Of a stretch of DNA of 64,000 bases, positions 3,104 to 29,088 are shown piece by piece. This stretch comes from Chryseobacterium sp. Leaf405 (GTDB taxonomy: Bacteria > Bacteroidota > Bacteroidia > Flavobacteriales > Weeksellaceae): assembly GCF_001425355.1 (NCBI RefSeq), contig NZ_LMQN01000015.1, forward strand, positions 171,862 to 235,861, given 5' to 3'. The notes below the pieces were generated by a model. That model ran no database searches and was not told where the DNA came from. It was given only the letters and a program-made list of their open reading frames with translations. Position numbers and translations under genes: made by a program. How positions within the stretch are numbered: position 1 is the stretch's first letter; every line of letters begins with the position of its first letter.

Positions 3104-4600
3104 TTATTGACCCAAAAGTTTTTCGATTTTAAGAATCATTTCTTTCGCATTGGTATTTTCAGGATTTAATTCTAAAGATTTTTGATACATTTTAAGGGCA
3201 TCTTCTTTTTTACCATCTTGAAGTAATGCTTCACCATAACTGTCGAATATATTTGAACTTTTTGGAAAAATTAATGTTGCCAAATGGAAAACCTGTAAAG
3301 AATTTTCATTTTTTTGAAGTCTGAGAAATTGATAGCCCAATCGGTTAAAATCTCTTTCCGTTGCGTTATAACTTTCCGGGTTTTTTAAATATCCTTCGAT
3401 CAGCTGATTCGCTTTTTCTTTATTTCCACTTTCCAATAAACTGCCATAGATTCTTGAAAGATTTTGTACAGGAATTGCATACATTTTGTTATCAAGTATT
3501 TGAAAAACGGTATTGGATAAAGGAAAAACGGAAGTATTTCCTGTATTAGATAAAAGAATCACAGTTTCATTTTTCTTAAGATTATGAATTAAAATAGAGG
3601 TCAATCCGGTAATAAACCCATCATGAAAGACAATTTTTCCGTTGCTTTCATCGGTATACATTCCCCATCCTAAACCGTAACTTATTTCTTGCCCATCTAT
3701 TACGTAGGTTACTTTTTTCCCATCGTTGAGTATTGTCGCTGTTAAAGCTTCTTCTAACTCCTTATTGCCTAAAATTTGGTAAGTAAATAATGCATTTTGG
3801 TGTTTTTGTAAGTCTAAAGCGGTGCTTACAATTCCTCCATTTCCATAAAAGTTGCTTCTTTCAACGATTAAAAAAGTTTCTTTTAAGCTATTTGTATTCA
3901 CAAGATCGGTCGAGTAAAAGTTTGGGTAGGTGTACAATTCTACCTGATTTACACTTTTCACTTTCCTGTCATTCGGAACAAATGAATTTTTCATTTTCGC
4001 AGGCTTGAAGATATTTTTCTCTAAATAATCAGCATAACTCATTCCTGATACTTTTTCGATAATCAGTGCGGCAATGCAAAAATTTACATTGTTGTATTCC
4101 CATTTGCTTCCGGGTAAGAATGAAATTGGTGTTTTGAAACGAATGAAAGTCGGTATAATATCAGAATTGGAAATGATTTTTTCCGGCTGTTCTTTGATAA
4201 TCACATCGAATAAATTATACTCTTGTGCCAATCCTGAAGTATTATTCAGCAATTGTTTGATGCTGATATTTGGATAAGGAAATTCCGGAAGATATTTTTG
4301 CACCGGATCATCAATCTTGAGTTTTCCTTTTTGTTTAAGCTGAAGTATTGCTGTTGCAGTAAATGTTTTTGTAATGGAAGCAATTGGGAATTGAGAAGTA
4401 TCGGAGATTTTTTCTTTCTTTTCGATGTTAGAAAACCCGTAAGTATGGGAAAAAATGTTTTCTCCGGATTTGGAAATGACAACGCTGCCATTAAACATCT
4501 TATTGTTGGAGAGTGTTGAAAAGAAATTATTTATTTCCTGCCCCGAAATAGTATTAACGAAAAAAGCAGTTAATAAAATCAAAAAGAATCTTTTTTTCAT
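3104..4600 (-). CDS. Serine beta-lactamase-like hydrolase with C-terminal TPR
   Basis: This 498-residue exported protein has a signal peptide (residues 1-20). The beta-lactamase/DD-peptidase fold (class C / esterase group) carries the nucleophile motif S75-I-T-K78, the YxN motif Y169-N-N171 and a later HDG triad near residue 325 in place of KTG. After residue about 370 the protein turns helical and ends in a TPR-like repeat (SYGEALLQDGKKEDALKMYQ). Such proteins act in the periplasm as peptidases or esterases; most do not confer beta-lactam resistance. It appears monocistronic. Confidence 0.85.
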   Translation of the reverse strand: MKKRFFLILLTAFFVNTISGQEINNFFSTLSNNKMFNGSVVISKSGENIFSHTYGFSNIEKKEKISDTSQFPIASITKTFTATAILQLKQKGKLKIDDPVQKYLPEFPYPNISIKQLLNNTSGLAQEYNLFDVIIKEQPEKIISNSDIIPTFIRFKTPISFLPGSKWEYNNVNFCIAALIIEKVSGMSYADYLEKNIFKPAKMKNSFVPNDRKVKSVNQVELYTYPNFYSTDLVNTNSLKETFLIVERSNFYGNGGIVSTALDLQKHQNALFTYQILGNKELEEALTATILNDGKKVTYVIDGQEISYGLGWGMYTDESNGKIVFHDGFITGLTSILIHNLKKNETVILLSNTGNTSVFPLSNTVFQILDNKMYAIPVQNLSRIYGSLLESGNKEKANQLIEGYLKNPESYNATERDFNRLGYQFLRLQKNENSLQVFHLATLIFPKSSNIFDSYGEALLQDGKKEDALKMYQKSLELNPENTNAKEMILKIEKLLGQ

Positions 4601-5858: not shown

Positions 5859-6881
5859 TTATAAACTCATTATTTTATTAATCTCAGCATTCATTCTTTC
5901 AACAATCCATTCTTTTTCGTCAGAAGATAAATCATTTAAAAGATGGTCGTTGTTTTCATTAAAATCTGTAATGACGTCTTCTAAAAATTCTGTTTTAATT
6001 TCAGAAACCCGAAGCTGATTGTTCAGATCTAGCGTACCTATTTTAGATATTGCACTTTTTAATCTGTTTTGAGTGACGTAGTTTCTCAATTCTTCTACGA
6101 TAAAAGACAAATCTTCTGTTTTAGAGGAAATATTGGGGATGAACGACCATTTTTCTGCCTCATGGAATTTCTCTTCTTCATCGAATTCAGGATTTTTTAA
6201 TTTGATGATTGGTCTTGAAAATGGGGTGTGATCTTTCTGATTGAAAGGTTTTATCACAACACCTTCAATTAAATTATTTTGTAACTCAGGGAGGTTGAAT
6301 TCTTTAGGAATAGAAGAATTGATTCTAATATTGAAGTTCATCGCTTCGTTGAATTTTCCGATCAATAATGGCTGTGCATGAAATATTTCAAACCGATTAA
6401 AATAAGCTACTGAAGTTTCATAATCCAAATAATATTTGGAACCTGAACCATCGGTTTCAATAGCAATATCGAAAGCACAGAATTCAATATTTGGAGTGTA
6501 ATATACGCCGGTCTGAATTGCATGGAGATCTTTTTCAGGATTGACTTCCGGATGAGGATATTTGCCACCGAACAATTCTCCGTAAACAATATATTTTTCT
6601 CCGGTTATTTCTTTGCTTAATTTTTCGAAAAGGGGGAGTATATGATCTTCTAATTTACTAACCACCAATTGGAAACCAAAAAAATTGTCTGTCCAGCTGA
6701 GGTATTCTTTTCTTTTGGCAAATTTCAAATTGCTGTTTTCATAAACAAAACTGAGGTTGGCTCCATGAACTTTTTCCGTAACCACCCATTTTAATTTTTC
6801 CATTTTGGAAAAATCGCTTTCGCTAAGACCTAATTTTTTTAAGTTGTTGGGCATTTTTTCATACCCTGAAAATTCACTCAT
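5859..6881 (-). CDS. T4 Rnl2-family RNA ligase
   Basis: This 340-residue ATP-dependent RNA ligase joins 3'-OH and 5'-phosphate RNA ends, usually across nicks. Motif I is E36-K37-V-H-G40-A-N, with K37 as the adenylated lysine (T4 Rnl2: EKIHGTN). Also visible are motif III (YIVYGELFGG), motif IV (LIEGVVIKP) and motif V (IIKLKNPEF). The C-terminal helical domain carries YVTQNRLKSAISKIG, very close to T4 Rnl2 YVTLNRVNNVISKIG, so the full two-domain architecture is present. Seven bases separate it from the upstream unknown gene, so the two are probably co-transcribed. RNA repair is the family role; the target here is unknown. Confidence 0.9.
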   Translation of the reverse strand: MSEFSGYEKMPNNLKKLGLSESDFSKMEKLKWVVTEKVHGANLSFVYENSNLKFAKRKEYLSWTDNFFGFQLVVSKLEDHILPLFEKLSKEITGEKYIVYGELFGGKYPHPEVNPEKDLHAIQTGVYYTPNIEFCAFDIAIETDGSGSKYYLDYETSVAYFNRFEIFHAQPLLIGKFNEAMNFNIRINSSIPKEFNLPELQNNLIEGVVIKPFNQKDHTPFSRPIIKLKNPEFDEEEKFHEAEKWSFIPNISSKTEDLSFIVEELRNYVTQNRLKSAISKIGTLDLNNQLRVSEIKTEFLEDVITDFNENNDHLLNDLSSDEKEWIVERMNAEINKIMSL

Positions 6882-6888
6882 TGTTTTT

Positions 6889-7566
6889 TTATTGATAGCT
6901 TGCTACTTGTTCTTTTAACCAGGATACACATTCTTCTGCTTTATCTACCGGCAGAAAATCTTTATAGTTATTCAACTTATCCAGAAGTTCTTCATAATCT
7001 TCAGAATCATATCTTTCTTTTGGGTCATCTTCCATTCTTATCAATTCTTCATAACGGAGTTGGAATTCATAAATTTCTTCTGCATAATAATCGGCAATAA
7101 TTTTCGGTGATGAGGCATAATCAGAAAGAAGATAGTCTTCAAAATAATGGAATTTGCCTTTATACTGATAATTTAATACTCCTTCTTTAATTTCGTATTC
7201 ATCAATATTATCAAAATAATACACGCAAAACAAAGCATCTTCTAAATAAATAGACAAATTGCTCATAAAATCTATATAATCATTGCCGCCAGGACCAGAT
7301 TTACTCTGGCCTTGTATCTGTATATATATTCCAGGTTTTTTAAAATTGATTATTTTATCTTCGTAATACATGGCACATCTTTCTAATATTCCATCATCGG
7401 AAATTACAGCAAAAGTATTGTTAAAAATTCCCCATTCACTTGTGTGAATTCGTTCATCAGCATATTTTTCTAAAAATTCTTTCTCTTTTTCTTTTTTTAC
7501 CTGCAAAATAGCGCCACCTAAAATTACTCTTGGTTTTAACTGCGTTACTCCATGTAATTCTCCCAT
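6889..7566 (-). CDS. Acidic protein of unknown function, upstream of the RNA ligase
   Basis: This 225-residue soluble protein is rich in Glu, Asp and Tyr. No signal peptide, membrane segment or catalytic motif is recognised. A region around SGPGGNDYIDFMSNLSIYLEDALF (residues 90-113) and a strongly acidic helical C-terminus (residues 165-225) stand out. The composition resembles that of polymorphic-toxin immunity proteins or SMI1/KNR4-like proteins, but this is impression only. The stop lies 7 bases before the RNA ligase start, which is good evidence for a shared transcript. Confidence 0.6.
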   Translation of the reverse strand: MGELHGVTQLKPRVILGGAILQVKKEKEKEFLEKYADERIHTSEWGIFNNTFAVISDDGILERCAMYYEDKIINFKKPGIYIQIQGQSKSGPGGNDYIDFMSNLSIYLEDALFCVYYFDNIDEYEIKEGVLNYQYKGKFHYFEDYLLSDYASSPKIIADYYAEEIYEFQLRYEELIRMEDDPKERYDSEDYEELLDKLNNYKDFLPVDKAEECVSWLKEQVASYQ

Positions 7567-7626
7567 CTCTATGTAATTTATGTTAAATATTCCATGACGC
7601 TTTAAATTTCTGTTTTGCCACTCTTT

Positions 7627-7828
7627 TTATAGAGGAACGGCTTCGATTCCTTTTAGTTGAAGATCTTCATATACTTTAGGATCGTTGCTGAAAAGTGTCA
7701 TTTTCTTTAAGTTCGGGAAATGTTTGATATCTTCATAATTTCAATGTTAAAAAATCATCTTCGCCATCCCAGTAAGGTGTGATGTTCATGTAAATGTCAT
7801 TTCCACCGTTTTGGTATATTTGAGTGAT
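7627..7828 (-). pseudogene. Remnant of a DUF6892-like gene, frameshifted
   Basis: On the minus strand a frame reads ITQIYQNGGNDIYMNITPYW and continues DGEDDFLTLKL before a stop. One frame over, it continues DIKHFPNLKKMTLFSNDPKVY and EDLQLKGIEAVPL, with a stop at 7627. Together these look like the end of one protein with a WDGEDD block followed by a PNLKK leucine-rich-like tail, as in DUF6892-type proteins (from memory). A TAG stop lies directly upstream at 7829-7831, so the N-terminus is lost too. It fills most of the 305-base gap between the acidic protein and the Kelch gene. Confidence 0.55.
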
Positions 7829-7871
7829 CTATGTAGTAAAATTAATGAAAAGTCTTTGATTAATAGATACT

Positions 7872-8807
7872 TTAATTTGATTGGTCATGAGCGGAGAGTG
7901 CTCCTTCACTAATATCCGCAACCTGAATATTTTTAATGGCTGATTTGGTTGAAGATGTTGTACTTCCGCCAATAATGTATAATTTATCGTTATATACTTC
8001 CGCGGCGGCGTGTCTTCTGGGAATCATATTGGATGATAACTGATATAGTTTATTGGTCTCTGTATCGAAATAGGCCAAAAAAGTTTGATTATTATACCCT
8101 TCTGCAATAAAAATCTTATTACCGGATACCGCTAATGAATGTCCGGATATCGCAACTGGCATCTTATATTGCTCAGTCCAAAGATTTTTGTTAAGATCGA
8201 AAACATTGACCAGACGGGAAGACGTACCGTTGAAACCACCAATGACATACAGCTTGTCATTCACAATTTTGCCCCTTGCTTCTCTGGCGGTGGGCATCTC
8301 GGGTAACTGATTCCAGGTATCTGAAGCAATATCATAGTATTGAAATCTGTTGGAAAATACAGTGGTTGCGGCATTGTTTAGTCCGCTGCCGCCGAATACA
8401 TATATTTTTCCGTCGTGGATAGCAGAACCTGCATTTCCTGTGTAGGCACGATTAACAGCTCCCTTGGTTATTTTATTAGTTTCAAGGTCCAGAATTTCAA
8501 GATGGCTGTTTCCCCAACCGTTAAAGATATAAATTTTATTATCGTAAGTCTCCGAATTGGCGAATTTTCTAGGAAGCAACTTAGAGTTGATGATACTCCA
8601 GCGGTTGTCTTTAATATTGTATTTCTCAATAAGAGTTGCATTACCATCACTAACTTTATAACCATTACTCACATAGATATTATCATCTACAATGACACTG
8701 CTTACAGCTCCTCTGCCCATAGACATATCCGAAAGATGTTTGAAATTTAGGGTTTGTGCATTGGCTAAGCATAAACCGAAAAGTGAAAGGAGAAATGATT
8801 TTTTCAA
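7872..8807 (-). CDS. Secreted Kelch-repeat beta-propeller protein
   Basis: This 311-residue protein has a signal peptide (MKKSFLLSLFGLCLANAQ). About six Kelch blades follow, each with the DGKIYVFGG / NDKLYVIGG signature followed by W and Y positions (for example residues 130-140, 182-190 and 272-280). The repeats fill almost the whole mature protein, giving a single propeller. Kelch propellers bind proteins or glycans; an enzymatic role is possible but nothing shows it. There is no T9SS tail, so it is probably periplasmic. Confidence 0.85.
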   Translation of the reverse strand: MKKSFLLSLFGLCLANAQTLNFKHLSDMSMGRGAVSSVIVDDNIYVSNGYKVSDGNATLIEKYNIKDNRWSIINSKLLPRKFANSETYDNKIYIFNGWGNSHLEILDLETNKITKGAVNRAYTGNAGSAIHDGKIYVFGGSGLNNAATTVFSNRFQYYDIASDTWNQLPEMPTAREARGKIVNDKLYVIGGFNGTSSRLVNVFDLNKNLWTEQYKMPVAISGHSLAVSGNKIFIAEGYNNQTFLAYFDTETNKLYQLSSNMIPRRHAAAEVYNDKLYIIGGSTTSSTKSAIKNIQVADISEGALSAHDQSN

Positions 8808-22672: not shown

Positions 22673-24363
22673 TTACGAATTTACTTTTCCCGAAGAAACG
22701 GTAAAAATTCCAAAGTCATCAATCAGCATATTTTCTTTTCCAATATTGTTGAAGGCAAAAACTCTATCCAGTTCTTTTTGTGAACGTCTTCTCATAATCC
22801 AGTCCTTATTTTGATGATTATTTAAAACATAGGCGATCATTTTCAGTTGCGGATGCCAAGGCTGTCCCGTGTAAATAATAAATGAATTTTTCTCTGAAAC
22901 AGAATTAATTCCCTGAATCGCTTTGCTTGCCATTTCATTATCTCCAAAAAGTTCAAAAATACCTGAAACGATGGTGATATTAGGTTCAAAATTAAGTTTC
23001 TGATATGTTGCGGGATCAAAACAATCAAAATTAGTAAACCGAATATGTTGGTAATTTTTATCTTTAATTACTTTTTCGCCGATTTCGATGTTTGACTGTA
23101 TGAATTCATTGATAACAATTTCAATTTCAGGATATTTCTCTTTGATATCAAATAAATAATTTCCCGTTCCTCCTGCAATATCAAGAATTTTAATCTTTCG
23201 TCCTTTTTTAATTGCTGAATATTTTGTTCTAAAAGTTGGATCAGATGTAGCTTTCTAATACGAATTCCCTTCCAACCGATAGCTTCAAGATAATTCTTAT
23301 CCATTATTTTTCCGAAACCCAATTTTCCGCTGGGTTGATTGTGATAAACGTAATCCAGAGAAGCTCCCGAATCAAAACCATATTTTAACCCAATTGCCAT
23401 CCCGTCGCTTATCTTTCCAATATTGTTTAATGAAAATTTCTGAAATTTGAAGTTTAAATTGTTACCAACATTATTTTTCAAATCCTGATATTCTTTTACT
23501 GAAAATTGATCTGGTGAAAGCGAAGGTTGTTTTTGGCTTGTATCAAAACATTTTTCCGCAAAATCTGCGATTTTATCATACACTTTTTCCTTTCCGGTAT
23601 CGAATAAAATTCCATGGAAAAAATTGGGTAACACTTCATAATGTTTTACATCAGTATCTAATTTATCATGAAAAATTTTCTGATCTTTATTAAAAACCAC
23701 ATGATCTTTTTCTGCCGCTAAAATCAACGTAGGAGTATCAATTGCTTTTGCATCCTCCACCAGTCTTTTTCCTGCTTTTGCCAGATCAATCAGCAATTCA
23801 GCATCGATTGATCTTGTAATTAACGGATCTGTATCGTAAGCTTTTTGCTGTTCAGGATCGTGCGTCAGCATTTTAGATTTTACATAACTTTTTATGATCA
23901 GCCCTTTTTTTAGTTTGGTTCCCAAAGTAATCATTTCATTTGCCAGAGGAACAATCAGATTAATTCTGAAAGCTGGTGCCAATAAGGTCATTCCTGCAAT
24001 TTGTGGAGCAAAATCATGTGTCCAGGCAGATGCAACAACCCCTCCGATGCTATTGGCAACAACAAAAATATCCGAAATTTTAACCTCATATTTTGATTGT
24101 AAAAACTTTGCAAAAGAATCCAGATCACGTACATAATCCATGAAAACAGATGAAGTTTCCGTCTTTGTATGACCATGACCACGAAGGTCAAACGCAAATA
24201 TATTGTACTTAGAAAATTGTGGCGATTGTGCTATATGATTCAATCTTTCAGAGTGCTCATGACCACGATGAATCATAATGATACTTTTCTGCTGTGGCTG
24301 GAAATTCCATTCACGATAAAAGATTTCGCTATTGTCAAAACTTTTAAAAATTCCGTTGTTCAT
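22673..24363 (-). pseudogene. YnbC-like alpha/beta hydrolase-methyltransferase fusion, frameshifted
   Basis: The first frame (from 24363) encodes an alpha/beta hydrolase: FDLRGHGHT, the nucleophile elbow ANSIGG and the catalytic region NFFHGILFD, then a linker to WKGIRIRK. There the frame is lost. One frame over, the protein continues KATSDPTFRTKYSAIKKGRK and then ILDIAGGTGNYLFDI, a SAM-binding motif I. This second frame stays open to the stop at 22673. Adding one A at the AAA run (plus-strand 23252-23254) restores a single 563-residue fusion. The intact fusion matches E. coli YnbC in architecture. It is the last gene of the operon. A sequencing error is the main alternative to a real mutation; the hydrolase alone could still be made. 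Confidence 0.85.
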
Positions 24364-24367
24364 AAAG

Positions 24368-25690
24368 TTAAATTTTTTTCAAAAAATCCATTATGTAAGA
24401 ATGTATAATGGCATTTTTATTAAGGATTTTTATTTTGGTTACTGCTTCTTCTATCGATAAAGATAAAGCATTTTTCACTACCAGAATTCCGATTACAGAA
24501 CTTCTTGTGAAACCCATTGTACAGTGAATCATGATTTTTCCGTCTTTCGGAAGATGATGATAATTATCGGTAATTTCTGTTACTAATTTTCGTGTTTCAT
24601 TTACGTCAAAACTTCCAATATCTAAGAATGGAAAAGATATGTATTTTGCATTTTCTTTTAATGGCTTTCCCTCCATTTCTGCTGATAAATCGTAAATAAA
24701 AGTATTTTTATTAACATTAAAATGAATTAAATCTTCCTTACTTGGTTTTGATGAAATATAAACATTTGGAAGAATTTGAATGGGATTTTTATTTTTTCTC
24801 AACAACTTCCAAAAGAACCAATACATCAATAAATAAGGAGCATACACTATCTTTTTTAGCACAGAAATATTTCCATTTTTATCCTTTAAAAAGTAAATAT
24901 TATTCTTTTGATAATGATAGCCAATAGTAAATGTTATTAAAGTTATCCACAAAGTTATCCACAAAGTTATCCACAACGAATTTACTTTAAAATTTGGTAT
25001 AAATTCACTTAATAATAAAGCAATGAGAATAAAAATCCATCCAAATAAAAAGTAATAATTGGCAACTTGAAAATTTCGGTATTGAAAATTATTTTTATGG
25101 TAAGGAAAAATGATAAAACTGAGATGTGCAAGAATTGATCCTGTAACAACGTCAATTAAATGATGTTGATAAGTAGTGAGTGTAGAAATTCCTAATAAAA
25201 TTAATAAAACCATTGAAAATTTTCTCCATTTCTTTTTGCTTCTGAATACCGACCAAAATACAAAGGCGAAAGCAATATGTAACGACGGAGCCTGATTAAA
25301 AGGTGTATCAAATTTCTCTAACAACTGAAAAGGAATGTCAAGAAAAAAATGGCTGACGTCGGGTTTTATAAGTGAGAATTTTAATGGAAATAAAATAAAA
25401 GAAATGCCTGCAACAATGATCACGAATAGCATTCTCTTTGTTAAAACTCTAAGCTCGTCTTTGTTTTTGCAGAAAAAAAATACCAGACAGAAAAACAGTC
25501 CACTCGTCATGTAAGGAATGATGGATAATGGTATAAATGGAATATCTTTTTCAATGCTAAAGACAAATGACGGAACATTTTTTAAATTGGAAACATACGA
25601 AGCAGAACCATTGTAAACCAATGAAAATACAATTGTACAGAGAACTAACGCCAGCGCCTGCTGCCTGATTTTTATTTGTTTTTCATCCAT
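24368..25690 (-). CDS. YnbD-like membrane PAP2 / dual-specificity phosphatase fusion
   Basis: This 440-residue protein has an N-terminal half with about seven membrane helices and PAP2-like motifs (PSLHIAF and HHLIDVVTG). The C-terminal cytosolic domain is of the tyrosine/dual-specificity phosphatase type, with H389-C390-x5-R396 (IHCTMGFTRSS). This is the architecture of E. coli YnbD. Near residue 245 the protein contains a triplicated LWIT segment encoded by a 12-bp repeat (24941-24976), probably within a membrane helix. It overlaps the upstream SDR gene by 19 bases and precedes the hydrolase by four. Likely substrates are phospholipid intermediates such as phosphatidylglycerophosphate-type products; this is inference. 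Confidence 0.88.
   Translation of the reverse strand: MDEKQIKIRQQALALVLCTIVFSLVYNGSASYVSNLKNVPSFVFSIEKDIPFIPLSIIPYMTSGLFFCLVFFFCKNKDELRVLTKRMLFVIIVAGISFILFPLKFSLIKPDVSHFFLDIPFQLLEKFDTPFNQAPSLHIAFAFVFWSVFRSKKKWRKFSMVLLILLGISTLTTYQHHLIDVVTGSILAHLSFIIFPYHKNNFQYRNFQVANYYFLFGWIFILIALLLSEFIPNFKVNSLWITLWITLWITLITFTIGYHYQKNNIYFLKDKNGNISVLKKIVYAPYLLMYWFFWKLLRKNKNPIQILPNVYISSKPSKEDLIHFNVNKNTFIYDLSAEMEGKPLKENAKYISFPFLDIGSFDVNETRKLVTEITDNYHHLPKDGKIMIHCTMGFTRSSVIGILVVKNALSLSIEEAVTKIKILNKNAIIHSYIMDFLKKI
24941..24976. repeat. Three tandem 12-bp repeats, each a perfect DnaA box
   Basis: TTATCCACA occurs at 24943-24951, 24955-24963 and 24967-24975, each separated by AAG, so the unit is AAGTTATCCACA three times. 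TTATCCACA is the consensus DnaA box. The array lies inside the phosphatase coding frame, where it encodes the repeated LWIT. Confidence 0.95.
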
Positions 25691-26427
25691 TTTGCTTTTT
25701 TAAACATGATAATATTTAATAGTGAAGAGGGAAGAAGTGCCAATGCTTTCATCATGAATTTCATCTTTGAAGGGAAAATGATGAATTTTTTTCTTTCTTC
25801 AATGGCTTGGGCAATAGTTTCTGTTGCTGTTTTTAAGTCTGTTAAAAATGTTTTTTTACTTAGATCGTTGTTGTTCAATTGTCTTAGTTTTGGAGTGTCA
25901 ACATATCCCGGAGCAATGGTTGTTACCGAAATCCCAAACGGTTGCAATGCTCGTCGGTAAGCATTCGCAATCTGAATAACCGACCGCTTCGTTTTTGTAT
26001 ACAAACTTGAATTTTCATAATCTAAAATCCCGGAAACGGATGCAATCACAGCAATTTTTCCTGATTGTTGATTTTTCATGATAGTTCTTGCCGCTTCAAA
26101 ACAATTTACCGTTCCTAAAATATTAGTTCGTAACATTTCTTCAGCTTCTTCATACGTAATATTTCCGGCTACGTCTTCGGCATAACTTCCGGCGCAGTTG
26201 ATAAATAAATCTAAATTTTCATTGTTTGAGAGAAAATTTTTCACTGCAGAAAAAACAGAATTCATATCGCAAACGTCTGCTTCAAAAACTTTCAGATTTT
26301 GTGAATTATTCTCTGGAATTTTGCTTACATCACGTCCGCAAATTCCCACCCGAAAATCTTTTTCAAGATAATACTGAGCCAAAGAATAACCGATTCCTGA
26401 AGTTCCGCCTGCAATGAACACATTCAT
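25672..26427 (-). CDS. Short-chain dehydrogenase/reductase of the lipid operon
   Basis: This 251-residue cytosolic NAD(P)-dependent oxidoreductase has the nucleotide motif GGTSGIGYSLA (residues 7-17), D51 in FEADVCD, NCAG in place of the usual NNAG, the catalytic Ser region VIASVSG and Y-T-K-T-K. The C-terminus carries a hydrophobic stretch (MMKALALLPSSLLNIIMF) as in 3-ketosphinganine- or acylglycerol-ketone-type reductases that touch the membrane. A role in reducing a lipid keto group is inferred from its neighbours. It overlaps the PAP2/phosphatase gene. Confidence 0.85.
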   Translation of the reverse strand: MNVFIAGGTSGIGYSLAQYYLEKDFRVGICGRDVSKIPENNSQNLKVFEADVCDMNSVFSAVKNFLSNNENLDLFINCAGSYAEDVAGNITYEEAEEMLRTNILGTVNCFEAARTIMKNQQSGKIAVIASVSGILDYENSSLYTKTKRSVIQIANAYRRALQPFGISVTTIAPGYVDTPKLRQLNNNDLSKKTFLTDLKTATETIAQAIEERKKFIIFPSKMKFMMKALALLPSSLLNIIMFKKAKWMKNK

Positions 26428-26485
26428 GAGTTTGTAATAGTTTAAATTTTGTTATAAATAATTTTTAACAATCAAAATGCCAATT

Positions 26486-27523
26486 CTATTTTTGAATACT
26501 CTTCATTGTTTGATCAAAACCATATTGCCATTGTTTTTCCATGTCTGTTTTAAATTGTTGATAACTTTTCGGCAATGAGAAATCAATTTCAAATTTTCGC
26601 CAATTGATTCCTTTTTGTAAATAATGTCCTTTCAAATCTTGCTTTATGTTGATGGTGTCAATCTGAAAATCGGGAGACAGTTTTTCAATTTCCTGTAATC
26701 TTTCATTTCCGCTATAACCCAAAACGGCACGGACGAATGCCTCTTCTGTCTTATTGTAAGATTGTTTTTTCTCAATAATAGCTTCATTCGCAAGATGCTT
26801 TGCCAGTTCAATCGGAACGAGATCAACTGCTCCACCAGCAAAATATTTTCCTTGAATTAAAGCGGGTTCTACATAAAACATATCTGAAATGGAAGTCCTC
26901 GTGCTTTCTAACATTGAAAATTGAGTTTCTATTTTTGGAAGATCTTCAATTGCGCTGTTTTTTAAATTTTCAGAATTAATAATAATTTGATTGGGAATAA
27001 TTTTCTTTGCAGTTTCAGGATCAGTGAAAATTATTTTTTGATATAATTTCCTGTCGTTTCGTTTTTGATTAACTTCTGTTGTATCAAAAAGAATCTCTGA
27101 ACCGATAATTATTGTGGGAATTTCCTGAGAGAATTTGGTGTTTTTTAATGATAGGAAATCTTCAGATAAATCCTGATGCATTTCTACCAAATACCTGTTG
27201 AATACATCTTCAATAAAAGGAGCATTTTTATTATTGATTATTTTCTTTAAAGTGAAAAGCCCTATTTTATTGAGCTTTTTTTGTTTTGTAAGTTTAGTTT
27301 TTGAAACGAATTGATAATATTCTTCTGACTGTAAATATTGTTTTCTTGACAGATTATCCGGAAAAGCGTTCACTACAGTTGCTGCAAAAGCTCCGCCACA
27401 TGAAGCGATCAAAACATCAGGTTTTATTCCTAATTCTTCAAGAGCAGAAAACATTCCGAGGTAGATCATCAATCTTGTTCCGCCTCCTGAAAATAATAAA
27501 GCTTTTTCGAATTTTTCATTCAT
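26486..27523 (-). CDS. Patatin-like protein with altered catalytic residues
   Basis: This 345-residue protein has the patatin oxyanion motif FSGGGTRLMIYLG (residues 11-23) and the nucleophile region LIASCGGAF, with Ser41. The usual GxSxG reads I-A-S-C-G, so the first Gly is replaced by Ile. The usual Asp-Gly-Gly of the catalytic dyad reads A229-G-G. Ser41 is kept but the Asp is absent at its expected place, so hydrolase activity is doubtful. Family members cleave fatty acyl chains from lipids. It sits three bases after the CDP-DAG synthase gene, within the lipid operon. Confidence 0.8.
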   Translation of the reverse strand: MNEKFEKALLFSGGGTRLMIYLGMFSALEELGIKPDVLIASCGGAFAATVVNAFPDNLSRKQYLQSEEYYQFVSKTKLTKQKKLNKIGLFTLKKIINNKNAPFIEDVFNRYLVEMHQDLSEDFLSLKNTKFSQEIPTIIIGSEILFDTTEVNQKRNDRKLYQKIIFTDPETAKKIIPNQIIINSENLKNSAIEDLPKIETQFSMLESTRTSISDMFYVEPALIQGKYFAGGAVDLVPIELAKHLANEAIIEKKQSYNKTEEAFVRAVLGYSGNERLQEIEKLSPDFQIDTINIKQDLKGHYLQKGINWRKFEIDFSLPKSYQQFKTDMEKQWQYGFDQTMKSIQK

Positions 27524-27526
27524 TTT

Positions 27527-28330
27527 TTAAATATTTAAAAGATAAGGTAAAATCCAGAAAAATAGGGGAGCATTGAAGATCAAGCTATCCATTCTGTCCA
27601 ATAATCCACCATGTCCGGGCAAAAGTTTTCCGGTGTCTTTGATGTTGGCTTTCCGTTTTAAATAAGACATAAAAACATCTCCAAAAAATCCTGAAATTCC
27701 TAATGTCAATCCCAATATAGAATTAACTAAAATATTAGTTTTCAATAAAAAAAATCCTAAAATATTACTTAAAATGATTGTTAAAAAAACTCCGCCCAAA
27801 AATCCTTCCAAAGTTTTATTTGGGCTGATTTGTGGCGTAATTTTATGTTTTCCAAAGAATTTTCCCATTACATATTGAAAGACATCGTTCAATTCTGTGA
27901 CAACGACAATAAAAATTATAGAATTGATTCCTGAAAAACTTTCTCGGATAAAATATAAATTTGGAAAAGCAAAAAGGCAGATGATCACTGCAATTCCTAT
28001 TTTTGAAATCTGTTGAAAAGAAGTTTTTAATACTGAAAAATAAATCAAAAAAATTAAAATTAGTGCTAAACTACACAGAAAATAATTTTCAAGACTGAAA
28101 AAATTCAGTAATAAGAATTGTGAAACTCCGATGAAAATTGATGGAATATTTCGGTTGGAATTGATTTTAAACAATCTTAAAAATTCAAAAAAACTCTGAA
28201 AGGCAATCCAGGAAACGAAAATTTTCATGGCAAACGGATGTGAAATTCCGACTGCGAAAACGAGAATGATGTAAATCCATGTTTTTACCCGTAAAGGAAC
28301 ATCCGCAAATTTGTTTTCTTCATTATTCAT
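27527..28330 (-). CDS. Phosphatidate cytidylyltransferase (YnbB/CdsA family)
   Basis: This 267-residue membrane protein has about seven helices. The CdsA signature near the C-terminus is GFFGDVFMSYLKRKANIKDTG-type followed by LLPGHGGLLDRMDSL, with the conserved Asp and Gly-His-Gly-Gly. The family makes CDP-diacylglycerol from phosphatidate and CTP. Its place next to a CDP-alcohol transferase matches E. coli ynbA-ynbB. It overlaps that gene by eight bases. Whether this is also the housekeeping enzyme of the cell cannot be judged from the window. Confidence 0.9.
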   Translation of the reverse strand: MNNEENKFADVPLRVKTWIYIILVFAVGISHPFAMKIFVSWIAFQSFFEFLRLFKINSNRNIPSIFIGVSQFLLLNFFSLENYFLCSLALILIFLIYFSVLKTSFQQISKIGIAVIICLFAFPNLYFIRESFSGINSIIFIVVVTELNDVFQYVMGKFFGKHKITPQISPNKTLEGFLGGVFLTIILSNILGFFLLKTNILVNSILGLTLGISGFFGDVFMSYLKRKANIKDTGKLLPGHGGLLDRMDSLIFNAPLFFWILPYLLNI

Positions 28331-28922
28331 GCAATGATTTCTTAAGTCTAATGTAAGTGCTGATGACCAACAGAGCGATAATGATGCCGAAAATATAGAT
28401 GGAGATTTCTGAAATATTGATTCCGAAAAAAGTAATTAAACCGTAAAGCCCTAACATTAAAGCACGGTCGCTTTTCCCCATCGGTCCATCGTAGCGGCGG
28501 TCTTTTCCGACAATTTTTCCAAGCAGACCCGAAAACTCATTAATAATGCTCAAAACGATGAAAATAATTATCAGATATAAACTTTCAGGTTGAAATTTTA
28601 ACAAAGGAAAAAAGATAGTTACATCTGATACAATGTCACCGACTTCATTCAGAACTTCCCCTAATTTGCTGGTTTGGTTGAATTTCCTTGCCATCATGCC
28701 ATCCAAAGCATTTAAAGCCATTCTTATTAATAACCCAATCGGTAAGCTCAGGAAAAACCATTTTGAATGATCTGCGTTCCAAAACATAATTCCGATTATT
28801 ACAGAAAGCAAAACAGAACTTATGGTAATCTGATTCGCCGTGATTTTATTTCTATGTAAAAATAAAAGGACAGGAGTAAGGAGCTGCTGAAATTTTGGTT
28901 TGAGTTTATATACGGAAATCAT
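28323..28922 (-). CDS. CDP-alcohol phosphatidyltransferase (YnbA-like)
   Basis: This 199-residue membrane enzyme has the CDP-AP motif D-G-M-M-A-R-x8-G-E-V-L-N-E-V-G-D. The canonical motif is DGxxARx8GxxxDxxxD; here the third Asp is Asn. I recall the same substitution in YnbA-type proteins, so it may be a subfamily mark and not a loss. The enzyme joins an alcohol head group to a CDP-activated lipid. The head group is unknown. It is the first gene of the lipid operon and diverges from pyrG. Confidence 0.88.
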   Translation of the reverse strand: MISVYKLKPKFQQLLTPVLLFLHRNKITANQITISSVLLSVIIGIMFWNADHSKWFFLSLPIGLLIRMALNALDGMMARKFNQTSKLGEVLNEVGDIVSDVTIFFPLLKFQPESLYLIIIFIVLSIINEFSGLLGKIVGKDRRYDGPMGKSDRALMLGLYGLITFFGINISEISIYIFGIIIALLVISTYIRLKKSLHE

Positions 28923-28948
28923 TGTGTATATTGGCTTTTGGGTGTAAT

Positions 28949-28956
28949 CAAATGTA
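28949..28956 (-). promoter_or_regulatory. -7 box of the lipid operon
   Basis: The minus strand reads TACATTTG, a perfect TAnnTTTG, 26 bases before the ATG at 28922. The region where a -33 element would lie is covered by the left arm of the inverted repeat. Confidence 0.5.
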
Positions 28957-28963
28957 AAGAAAA

Positions 28964-29036
28964 TTTATGTTTAAATCTAAATATCATTTGGATTATTCAA
29001 ATTTAAATCTAAAGAATATTTGGATTTAAACATAAA
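28964..29036. repeat. Inverted repeat between the divergent lipid operon and pyrG
   Basis: Two 21-base arms (28964-28984 and 29016-29036) are complementary at 20 of 21 positions and are separated by 31 bases. The spacer repeats parts of the arms (TTTGGATT and AAATCTAAA). The left arm overlaps the expected -33 zone of the lipid operon; the right arm abuts the -33 TTG of pyrG. This placement is what an operator or a cruciform-forming regulator site would have. Confidence 0.75.
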
Positions 29037-29042
29037 ACAAAA

Positions 29043-29073
29043 TTGCTTTGTATTTCTTTTTCCCATAACTTTG
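29043..29073 (+). promoter_or_regulatory. pyrG promoter
   Basis: TTG at 29043-29045, a 20-base spacer, then TAACTTTG at 29066-29073, a perfect -7 box. It lies 15 bases before the ATG at 29089. The open frame that starts at 29020 runs through this promoter, so the later start is chosen. Confidence 0.65.
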
Positions 29074-29088
29074 CACAAACCTAATCTA

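Follow-up and report, generated by a model that had tools for sequence, protein, structure and literature searches.

A six-gene version of the YnbABCD/Arc1 phospholipid module in Chryseobacterium, with a cysteine at the patatin nucleophile position and an altered metal site in the CDP-alcohol phosphotransferase

To which known system does a compact block of lipid genes in Chryseobacterium sp. Leaf405 belong, and what might it do? The block lies in a stretch of 64,000 nucleotides (contig NZ_LMQN01000015.1, positions 171,862 to 235,861), referred to here as the window. It consists of six minus-strand genes, designated A to F, flanked by yceI/radA on one side and pyrG on the other. They encode a protein with a cytidine diphosphate (CDP)-alcohol phosphotransferase fold (A), a CDP-diacylglycerol (CDP-DAG) synthase (B), a patatin-fold protein (C), a short-chain dehydrogenase (SDR) (D), a membrane phosphatase (E), and an alpha/beta hydrolase fused to a methyltransferase (F). 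An original prediction, made from the letters of the sequence, described the block as a ynbABCD-like operon dedicated to an unusual phospholipid. We found that it belongs to the YnbABCD/Arc1 phospholipid module, of which it represents a six-gene form, and we propose that it may remodel or repair membrane lipids.

Membership in the YnbABCD/Arc1 module and its two forms

The predicted likeness to the E. coli operon was borne out for all four of its proteins. YnbA matched A (47% identity), YnbB matched B (38%), YnbC matched the two parts of F (37% and 39%), and YnbD matched E (28%), with E-values for this core ranging from 2e-38 to 8e-87. The four genes whose adjacency defines the module (A, B, E, and F) lie together in the window, F being frame-broken. 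The acyltransferase gene of the arc1 form, here called P, was absent from the block.

The arc1 operon (antagonism resistance cluster 1) of Pseudomonas aeruginosa comprises six genes, PA2541-36, five of which are phospholipid related, and its mutants are less fit under type VI secretion system (T6SS) attack by B. thailandensis (PMC8926400). The same article reports that the mutants tolerate heat, peroxide, salt, and detergent as well as the wild type does, that the operon is controlled by Gac/Rsm, and that this control is restricted to Gammaproteobacteria (PMC8926400). Loss of arc1A increases sensitivity to attackers that carry lipase effectors (PMC12663445). For E. coli, overproduction of YnbB raises the level of the glycolipid MPIase, and YnbB is unable to replace CdsA (PMC6362211). 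Given what these texts report on T6SS resistance (PMC8926400), lipases (PMC12663445), and MPIase (PMC6362211), the earlier statement that the function of ynbABCD is unsettled no longer holds in full. The string "ynb" occurs in the main text of neither PMC8926400 nor PMC12663445.

Co-occurrence of the six families in Bacteroidota and Pseudomonadota had been suggested as a check on the prediction, with rare co-occurrence as the outcome that would speak against it. Genome contigs were profile-searched with an alignment of C (Moraxella query first), and the best 80 of 115 relatives were used. Profiles of A to F and P were run on six-frame open reading frames (ORFs); the P profile was built from two sequences (Shinella and Burkholderia) and applied at 30 bits within ~9 kb. 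Because the loci were found via C, they contain C by design; this selection does not bear on whether A, B, D, E, and F are present or P is absent. Among these best 80 loci, 35 contained all six genes, 44 contained C alone, and 1 was cut by a contig end, with A, B, and C visible. The six-gene loci came from Chryseobacterium (15), Cellulophaga (2), Moraxella (3), Aliivibrio (1), and Burkholderiales (14), representing Bacteroidota as well as Beta- and Gammaproteobacteria; the families thus do occur together in both phyla. P was detected in none of the 35 within ~9 kb. Gene order is A-B-C-D-E-F in Bacteroidota and A-F-C-D, with B and E reversed, in Moraxella and Aliivibrio. Burkholderiales show B-F, with A and E reversed, and C-D, one locus having D before C. 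No foreign gene was found within the block in any of four representatives (L085, L097, L113, and L080), the unlabeled ORF in the L080 block being the second half of a frame-broken E.

A complementary picture was obtained from 398 evenly drawn Pseudomonadota genomes. F was present in 27, and exclusion of the seed locus L097 left 26. Twenty-two of these loci carried A, B, E, F, and P, one carried A, B, F, and P, two carried A, E, and F, and one carried A and F, while neither C nor D was found in any of the 26 in the stretch read. The common order of this acyltransferase form is A-F-E-P-B. A small gene, x, is annotated between E and P in Shinella (where A is turned) and after E in Burkholderia (where B and P are turned). 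The two forms, one with P and the other with C and D, are never mixed in the loci read. A tree of 52 F proteins separated the P side, which includes E. coli, from the C-D lineages plus Fusobacterium by a long, fully supported branch. Three of its 28 P-labeled rows (L211, L212, and L217) lack P in the stretch read, and the tree flags long branches, which limits the inference of a single origin for the C-D form.

Parts of the module were also seen on mobile and more distant DNA. The Moraxella osloensis plasmid pNP7-2 (L075, 8284-16227) holds parts of each of the six genes. A transposase gene separates B from E, IS3 transposases surround the block, and F has an in-frame stop; this mobile copy is perhaps decaying. 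A Fusobacterium vincentii record (L076, 11989-15108) contains a smaller core, with F, A, and B sharing 36-64% identity, and its stretch showed no E, C, D, or P. A conjugative IncF plasmid of E. coli (L233, 5413-8728) encodes a CDP-DAG synthase, a lysophospholipid acyltransferase, and a hydrolase-methyltransferase, which is part of the arc1 form.

Catalytic sites of the encoded proteins

The predicted model of C, with a predicted local distance difference test (pLDDT) score of 92.2, has a patatin fold. It matched PlpD with a Z-score of 19.7 over 230 residues at 3.2 Å and also CapV, CapE, and patatin itself at a Z-score of 15 or more. The GGG oxyanion motif is kept, and the nucleophile position is occupied by Cys42 instead of Ser. 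Cysteine was found at this place in 23 of 23 aligned rows (21 congeners, the Moraxella plasmid, and the window) and in all 80 scan loci. Of the two patterns used to scan for C, one includes the Cys, but 29 of the 80 loci do not match that pattern and have Cys all the same. The catalytic Asp of the dyad is also absent. Its place, Ala229 in the window, holds Ala, Met, Ile, Phe, Leu, Thr, Ser, or Val in all 80 loci and therefore varies, unlike the invariant Cys. C thus retains the fold and the GGG motif without the Ser-Asp dyad, and the original view of C as a deacylase is not supported, both catalytic residues being replaced. Since the single phmmer match to PlpD was weak (E-value of 0.0094, with a gap at the Asp), the patatin assignment rests on the fold comparison and on a GxSxG-like alignment; the match nonetheless agrees on the placement of Cys42. 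A PDB profile search with the C alignment gave no match at 1e-3. The invariant D214 is a possible new acid or base, and a Cys nucleophile would suit an acyl-thioester better than a lipase reaction.

Many of the 44 loci with C alone (e.g., L082, L100, and L127) belong to Oxalobacteraceae. A common neighborhood of these stand-alone proteins was considered and rejected, as the recurring neighbors look like genus background. Nothing lipid related was seen by eye among these neighbors, on which no family search was made.

The second altered site was found in A. Its predicted model (pLDDT of 88) has the CDP-alcohol transferase fold, and its best PDB matches were phosphatidylinositol phosphate (PIP) synthases, with a template modeling score of ~0.74. 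The signature glycines are kept, as are the second and fourth aspartates of the family signature (D2, D74; D4, D96), whereas the first and third are asparagines (D1, N71; D3, N92). This Asn-Asp-Asn-Asp arrangement was present in 27 of 27, 35 of 35, and 27 of 27 rows of three overlapping sets. A consequently departs from the four-Asp signature of canonical CDP-alcohol phosphotransferases, and the ordinary head-group transfer assumed for it originally is not supported, two of the four Asp being Asn. The two other CDP-alcohol transferases of the genome have all four Asp. Residues D68, D71, D89, and D93 of Mycobacterium tuberculosis PgsA1 bind two metals (PMC6506517), and A has Asn at two of these positions in the alignment. 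D4 acts as the base in a PIP synthase, where its change to Asn nearly abolishes activity (PMC4634129).

Arg94 of PgsA1 is required for inositol phosphate (PMC6506517). The corresponding place in A is Ile, Gln, Leu, Val, or Met in the 35 C-D rows and Val, Ile, Met, or Leu in the 27 Pseudomonadota rows, and it is never Arg or Lys in either set. An inositol lipid as the product was rejected: the best NCBIfam model for A, archaetidylinositol-phosphate synthase, scored 71 bits, far below its cutoff of 180 bits. From the sequence, de novo inositol phosphate is an unlikely acceptor of A, because this genome has no match to inositol-1-phosphate synthase (PF07994); the control search was positive in 5 of 14 known genomes.

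The remaining proteins appear less altered. Motif residues of B seem intact in an alignment judged by eye, and a separate second CDP-DAG synthase is encoded elsewhere in the genome. D has the Gly-rich motif and the intact Ser-Tyr-Lys residues of an SDR, each of the three being present in 35 of 35 loci. By analogy with yeast Ayr1, D may alternatively reduce a substrate of the acyl-dihydroxyacetone phosphate type. All six family names given originally agree with Pfam, with one reservation for the dual-specificity phosphatase (DSP) domain of E: its PF00782 (DSPc) match lies below the Pfam cutoff (22.2 versus 33.5 bits), and the CX5R motif is present as HCTMGFTRS. This motif occurs in 22 of the 35 six-gene loci and is absent from 13. 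In the hydrolase half of F, the catalytic residues are intact.

Layout of the locus and distribution in Chryseobacterium

ORF coordinates confirmed the six minus-strand genes and their spacing as originally described, with overlaps of 8 and 19 bases and gaps of 3, 58, and 4 bases (Table 1).

Table 1. Features of the six-gene block and its surroundings (window coordinates)
Feature	Position	Strand	Assignment	Evidence or remark
Gene A	28323..28922	-	YnbA/Arc1A-like CDP-alcohol phosphotransferase fold	PF01066 CDP-OH_P_transf, 2.7e-10
Gene B	27527..28330	-	CDP-DAG synthase, YnbB-like	PF01148 CTP_transf_1, 1e-56
Gene C	26486..27523	-	Patatin-fold protein	PF01734 Patatin, 4e-10
C-D gap	26428..26485	-	Possible second promoter	58 bases; apparent remnant of relatives' conserved pre-D block
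Gene D	25672..26427	-	SDR	PF00106 adh_short, 9.3e-35
Gene E	24368..25690	-	Membrane PAP2-type phosphatase plus DSP-like domain, YnbD-like	PF14378 PAP2_3, 7.8e-10; PF01569 PAP2, 1e-7
Gene F, 5' part	23068..24363	-	Alpha/beta hydrolase plus methyltransferase start, YnbC-like	PF12146 Hydrolase_4, 1.2e-52; PF12147 Methyltransf_20, 6.8e-32
F frame break	23195..23211	-		In-phase A AAA AAG inside; few bases shorter than relatives (by eye)
Gene F, 3' part	22673..23203	-	Methyltransferase remainder, -1 frame	PF12147 positions 129-306, 9.4e-52; listed ORF 22673-22933
A/pyrG divergent intergenic region	28923..29088	-	Candidate promoter element	TACATTTG near A, resembling the Bacteroidota -7 element

At the C-D joint, the description as a tight operon holds for this genome but not for relatives, in which the spacing there ranges from ~120 to 1,950 bases. 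A conserved block lies just upstream of D in the relatives (20 rows aligned). Because of these long gaps and the conserved block, A-B-C and D-E-F may form two transcripts. An extra conserved gene in the C-D gap of the relatives was rejected, since the three forward frames of 11 gaps showed no common ORF. Repeats of the GGCTAAAGCC type occur in 6 of 11 congener gaps (L027, L028, L030, L031, L035, and L041) and are missing from that of the window. The gap of L033 contains ~1.9 kb of extra DNA (6626-8574) that shares the frame text FNMPDINS.LLCISH with DNA beside pyrG in L231 (1-1311); the two probably represent the same gene, whose product looks by eye like a beta-helix type protein. A known anti-phage defense system was rejected on the basis of a PADLOC scan of the six ORFs with anti-phage models, in which only D gave a match, at chance level (14.4 bits, E-value of 0.002).

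F was correctly predicted as a hydrolase-methyltransferase fusion, but its frame break in the window had been missed. The ORF that encodes the hydrolase ends at 23068, and the rest of the methyltransferase lies in the -1 frame, which extends to 22673. Among the 23 carrier congeners, F is a single ORF of 564-581 amino acids from stop to stop in 22, L032 being the exception. The in-phase A AAA AAG heptamer at 23209-23203 raised the possibility of programmed -1 frameshifting. We rejected it because F is unbroken in these relatives, the heptamer is rare (nearby in any phase in only 2 of 21 relatives with the stretch located), the downstream RNA folds no better than shuffled sequences (z of -0.84; 44 of 200 as good), and, judged by eye, the window is a few bases shorter than relatives at this place. 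The break is more likely due to a small deletion or to an error in the assembly. As F is frame-broken, the module may be losing function in this genome.

The genus sample comprised 98 genomes, including that of Leaf405, and the neighborhoods of the other 23 F carriers were read. F was present in 24 of 98 genomes and absent from 74. In 22 of the 23 carrier congeners, the block adjoins pyrG and shows its six genes in the order A to F. The contig of L042 begins within the block, so that only D-E-F are visible, and L032 has the six genes, all in fragments. Twelve congeners without F were also inspected. Eight have pyrG near yceI and/or radA with no trace of A to F, two have an E relic, and two have other DNA. 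The relics lie between pyrG and yceI and are truncated or broken (L226, ~3576-4370; L227, ~285-1060). Empty sites and relics in noncarriers indicate that the block is dispensable in the genus and was lost more than once or gained late. F is the only PF12147 gene of the genome, and its match was the only strong one when 395 Bacteroidota genomes were sampled; the 25 others were partial, with E-values no better than 5.8e-8.

Possible role and relation to known systems

By analogy with arc1, we propose that the block could be a nonessential membrane-lipid remodeling or repair set that aids survival of membrane attack, above all by the phospholipases of rivals; in our judgment, the chances for and against this role are evenly balanced. 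The hydrolase half of F would trim or clear damaged lipid, B would produce a CDP-activated lipid, A would transfer it using its altered metal site, and E would carry out dephosphorylation. C and D would take the acyl-supply place that is held in the arc1 form by a lysophosphatidate-type acyltransferase. P was not found alongside C and D, which suggests that acyl handling, the task of P, falls to C together with D in this form. A more specific version is tentative to the point of being doubtful: C would represent an undescribed family of thioester-using acyltransferases that, with the SDR, replaces the Arc1 acyltransferase step, and A would be a transferase with a reprogrammed metal site catalyzing a novel transfer. 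If true, this would be new lipid-repair chemistry serving immunity against phospholipase toxins, in two old and exchangeable forms.

Several points weigh against a role in lipid repair. To our knowledge, the C-D form has not been studied by experiment. The gene-by-gene match with arc1 is itself tentative: PA2541 to PA2536 would correspond to A, F, E, x, P, and B according to gene order and the names of PA2536 and PA2540, PA2541 presumably being the CDP-alcohol transferase and PA2537 the acyltransferase. PA2536 is named a probable cytidylyltransferase (PMC8190622), and PA2540 is named a putative phospholipase (PMC5541441). Arc1 protection is reported to be broader than that against lipases (PMC8926400) and to be auxiliary to Arc3 (PMC12663445), which leaves lipase repair unsettled even for arc1. 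Deletion of ynbB in E. coli is reported not to slow growth and to leave MPIase without significant change (PMC6362211). Finally, 14 of 15 stand-alone Cys-patatin genomes tested lack F, so that the Cys-patatin has a role of its own outside the module.

The originally predicted alternative is dedicated synthesis of an unusual, constitutive phospholipid, in which B makes the CDP-lipid, A adds the head group, E dephosphorylates, D reduces, C deacylates, and F methylates. It would account for the co-occurrence of the six families and for the catalytic residues kept in B, D, E (whose DSP motif is present at 22 of the 35 loci), and the F hydrolase. Since the housekeeping CDP-DAG synthase and the two four-Asp CDP-alcohol transferases lie elsewhere in the genome, the set in the block also appears to be dedicated. 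We nevertheless regard this alternative as rather unlikely, for C lacks both patatin catalytic residues, the metal site of A is altered with neither Arg nor Lys at the Arg94 place, the genome has no PF07994 match, and the distribution in the genus is patchy (24 of 98 genomes). The same replacements, namely Cys and a non-Asp residue in 80 of 80 loci of C and Asn at D1 and D3 of A, could instead mark A and C as pseudoenzymes, with C binding acyl chains or lysolipid, A binding CDP-lipid as a scaffold or sensor, and chemistry being left to B, D, E, and F. However, the Cys of C and the Asn pair of A are invariant in kind, and D2, D4, the glycines, and GGG are kept; this argues for a retuned site instead of decay and makes the pseudoenzyme explanation unlikely. 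A module that is carried along with little benefit, decaying in the genus and heading toward a pseudo-operon in the window, would fit the broken F, its absence from 74 of 98 genomes, and the E relics in 2 of 12 noncarriers, but this explanation is improbable in view of five other intact ORFs and an unbroken F in 22 of 23 carrier congeners.

The operon type as such is already known. As far as our literature search shows, the new elements are the C-D six-gene unit, which occurs in two phyla and does not mix with the acyltransferase form, the family of Cys-patatins, the signature Asn-Asp-Asn-Asp in YnbA/Arc1A, and the link between ynbABCD and arc1. Neither a Cys-nucleophile patatin of this family nor the ynbABCD-arc1 link was found in the titles and abstract openings covered by that search, most subscription papers lying outside it. 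The link is of practical value: arc1, a defense against rival bacteria, was found by genetics, and its relation to E. coli YnbABCD offers a laboratory model. The C-D form would be a natural swap of an acyltransferase for a Cys-patatin plus an SDR, hinting at the place of acyl chemistry in the module, and a patatin family with Cys at the nucleophile place would be a new enzyme class. Because of the invariant Asn pair, YnbA/Arc1A should also not be assigned a function from labels like "phosphatidylglycerol synthesis-like."

Among known systems, PlpD and other patatin-like phospholipases share the fold and the GGG motif with C, which differs in having Cys for Ser and in the loss of the Asp. PIP synthases and other CDP-alcohol phosphotransferases share the fold, D2, D4, and the glycines with A, which differs by Asn at D1 and D3 and by Ile, Gln, Leu, Val, or Met at the Arg94 place. 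At the level of the operon, the blocks of Moraxella, Aliivibrio, Undibacterium, Duganella, Rhodoferax, and Cellulophaga contain all six families as in the window, and those outside Bacteroidota differ from it by gene order. The P. aeruginosa operon arc1A-F (PA2541-36) has the core A, B, E, and F in common with the block, as judged via homologous Pseudomonadota loci; it has the acyltransferase P and the small protein x, where the block has patatin C and SDR D instead. E. coli K-12 ynbABCD shares the four core genes, and its YnbA carries the same Asn-Asp-Asn-Asp signature. Its operon has the order A-B-F-E without patatin, SDR, or acyltransferase, and its F protein falls within the arc1 side of the tree.

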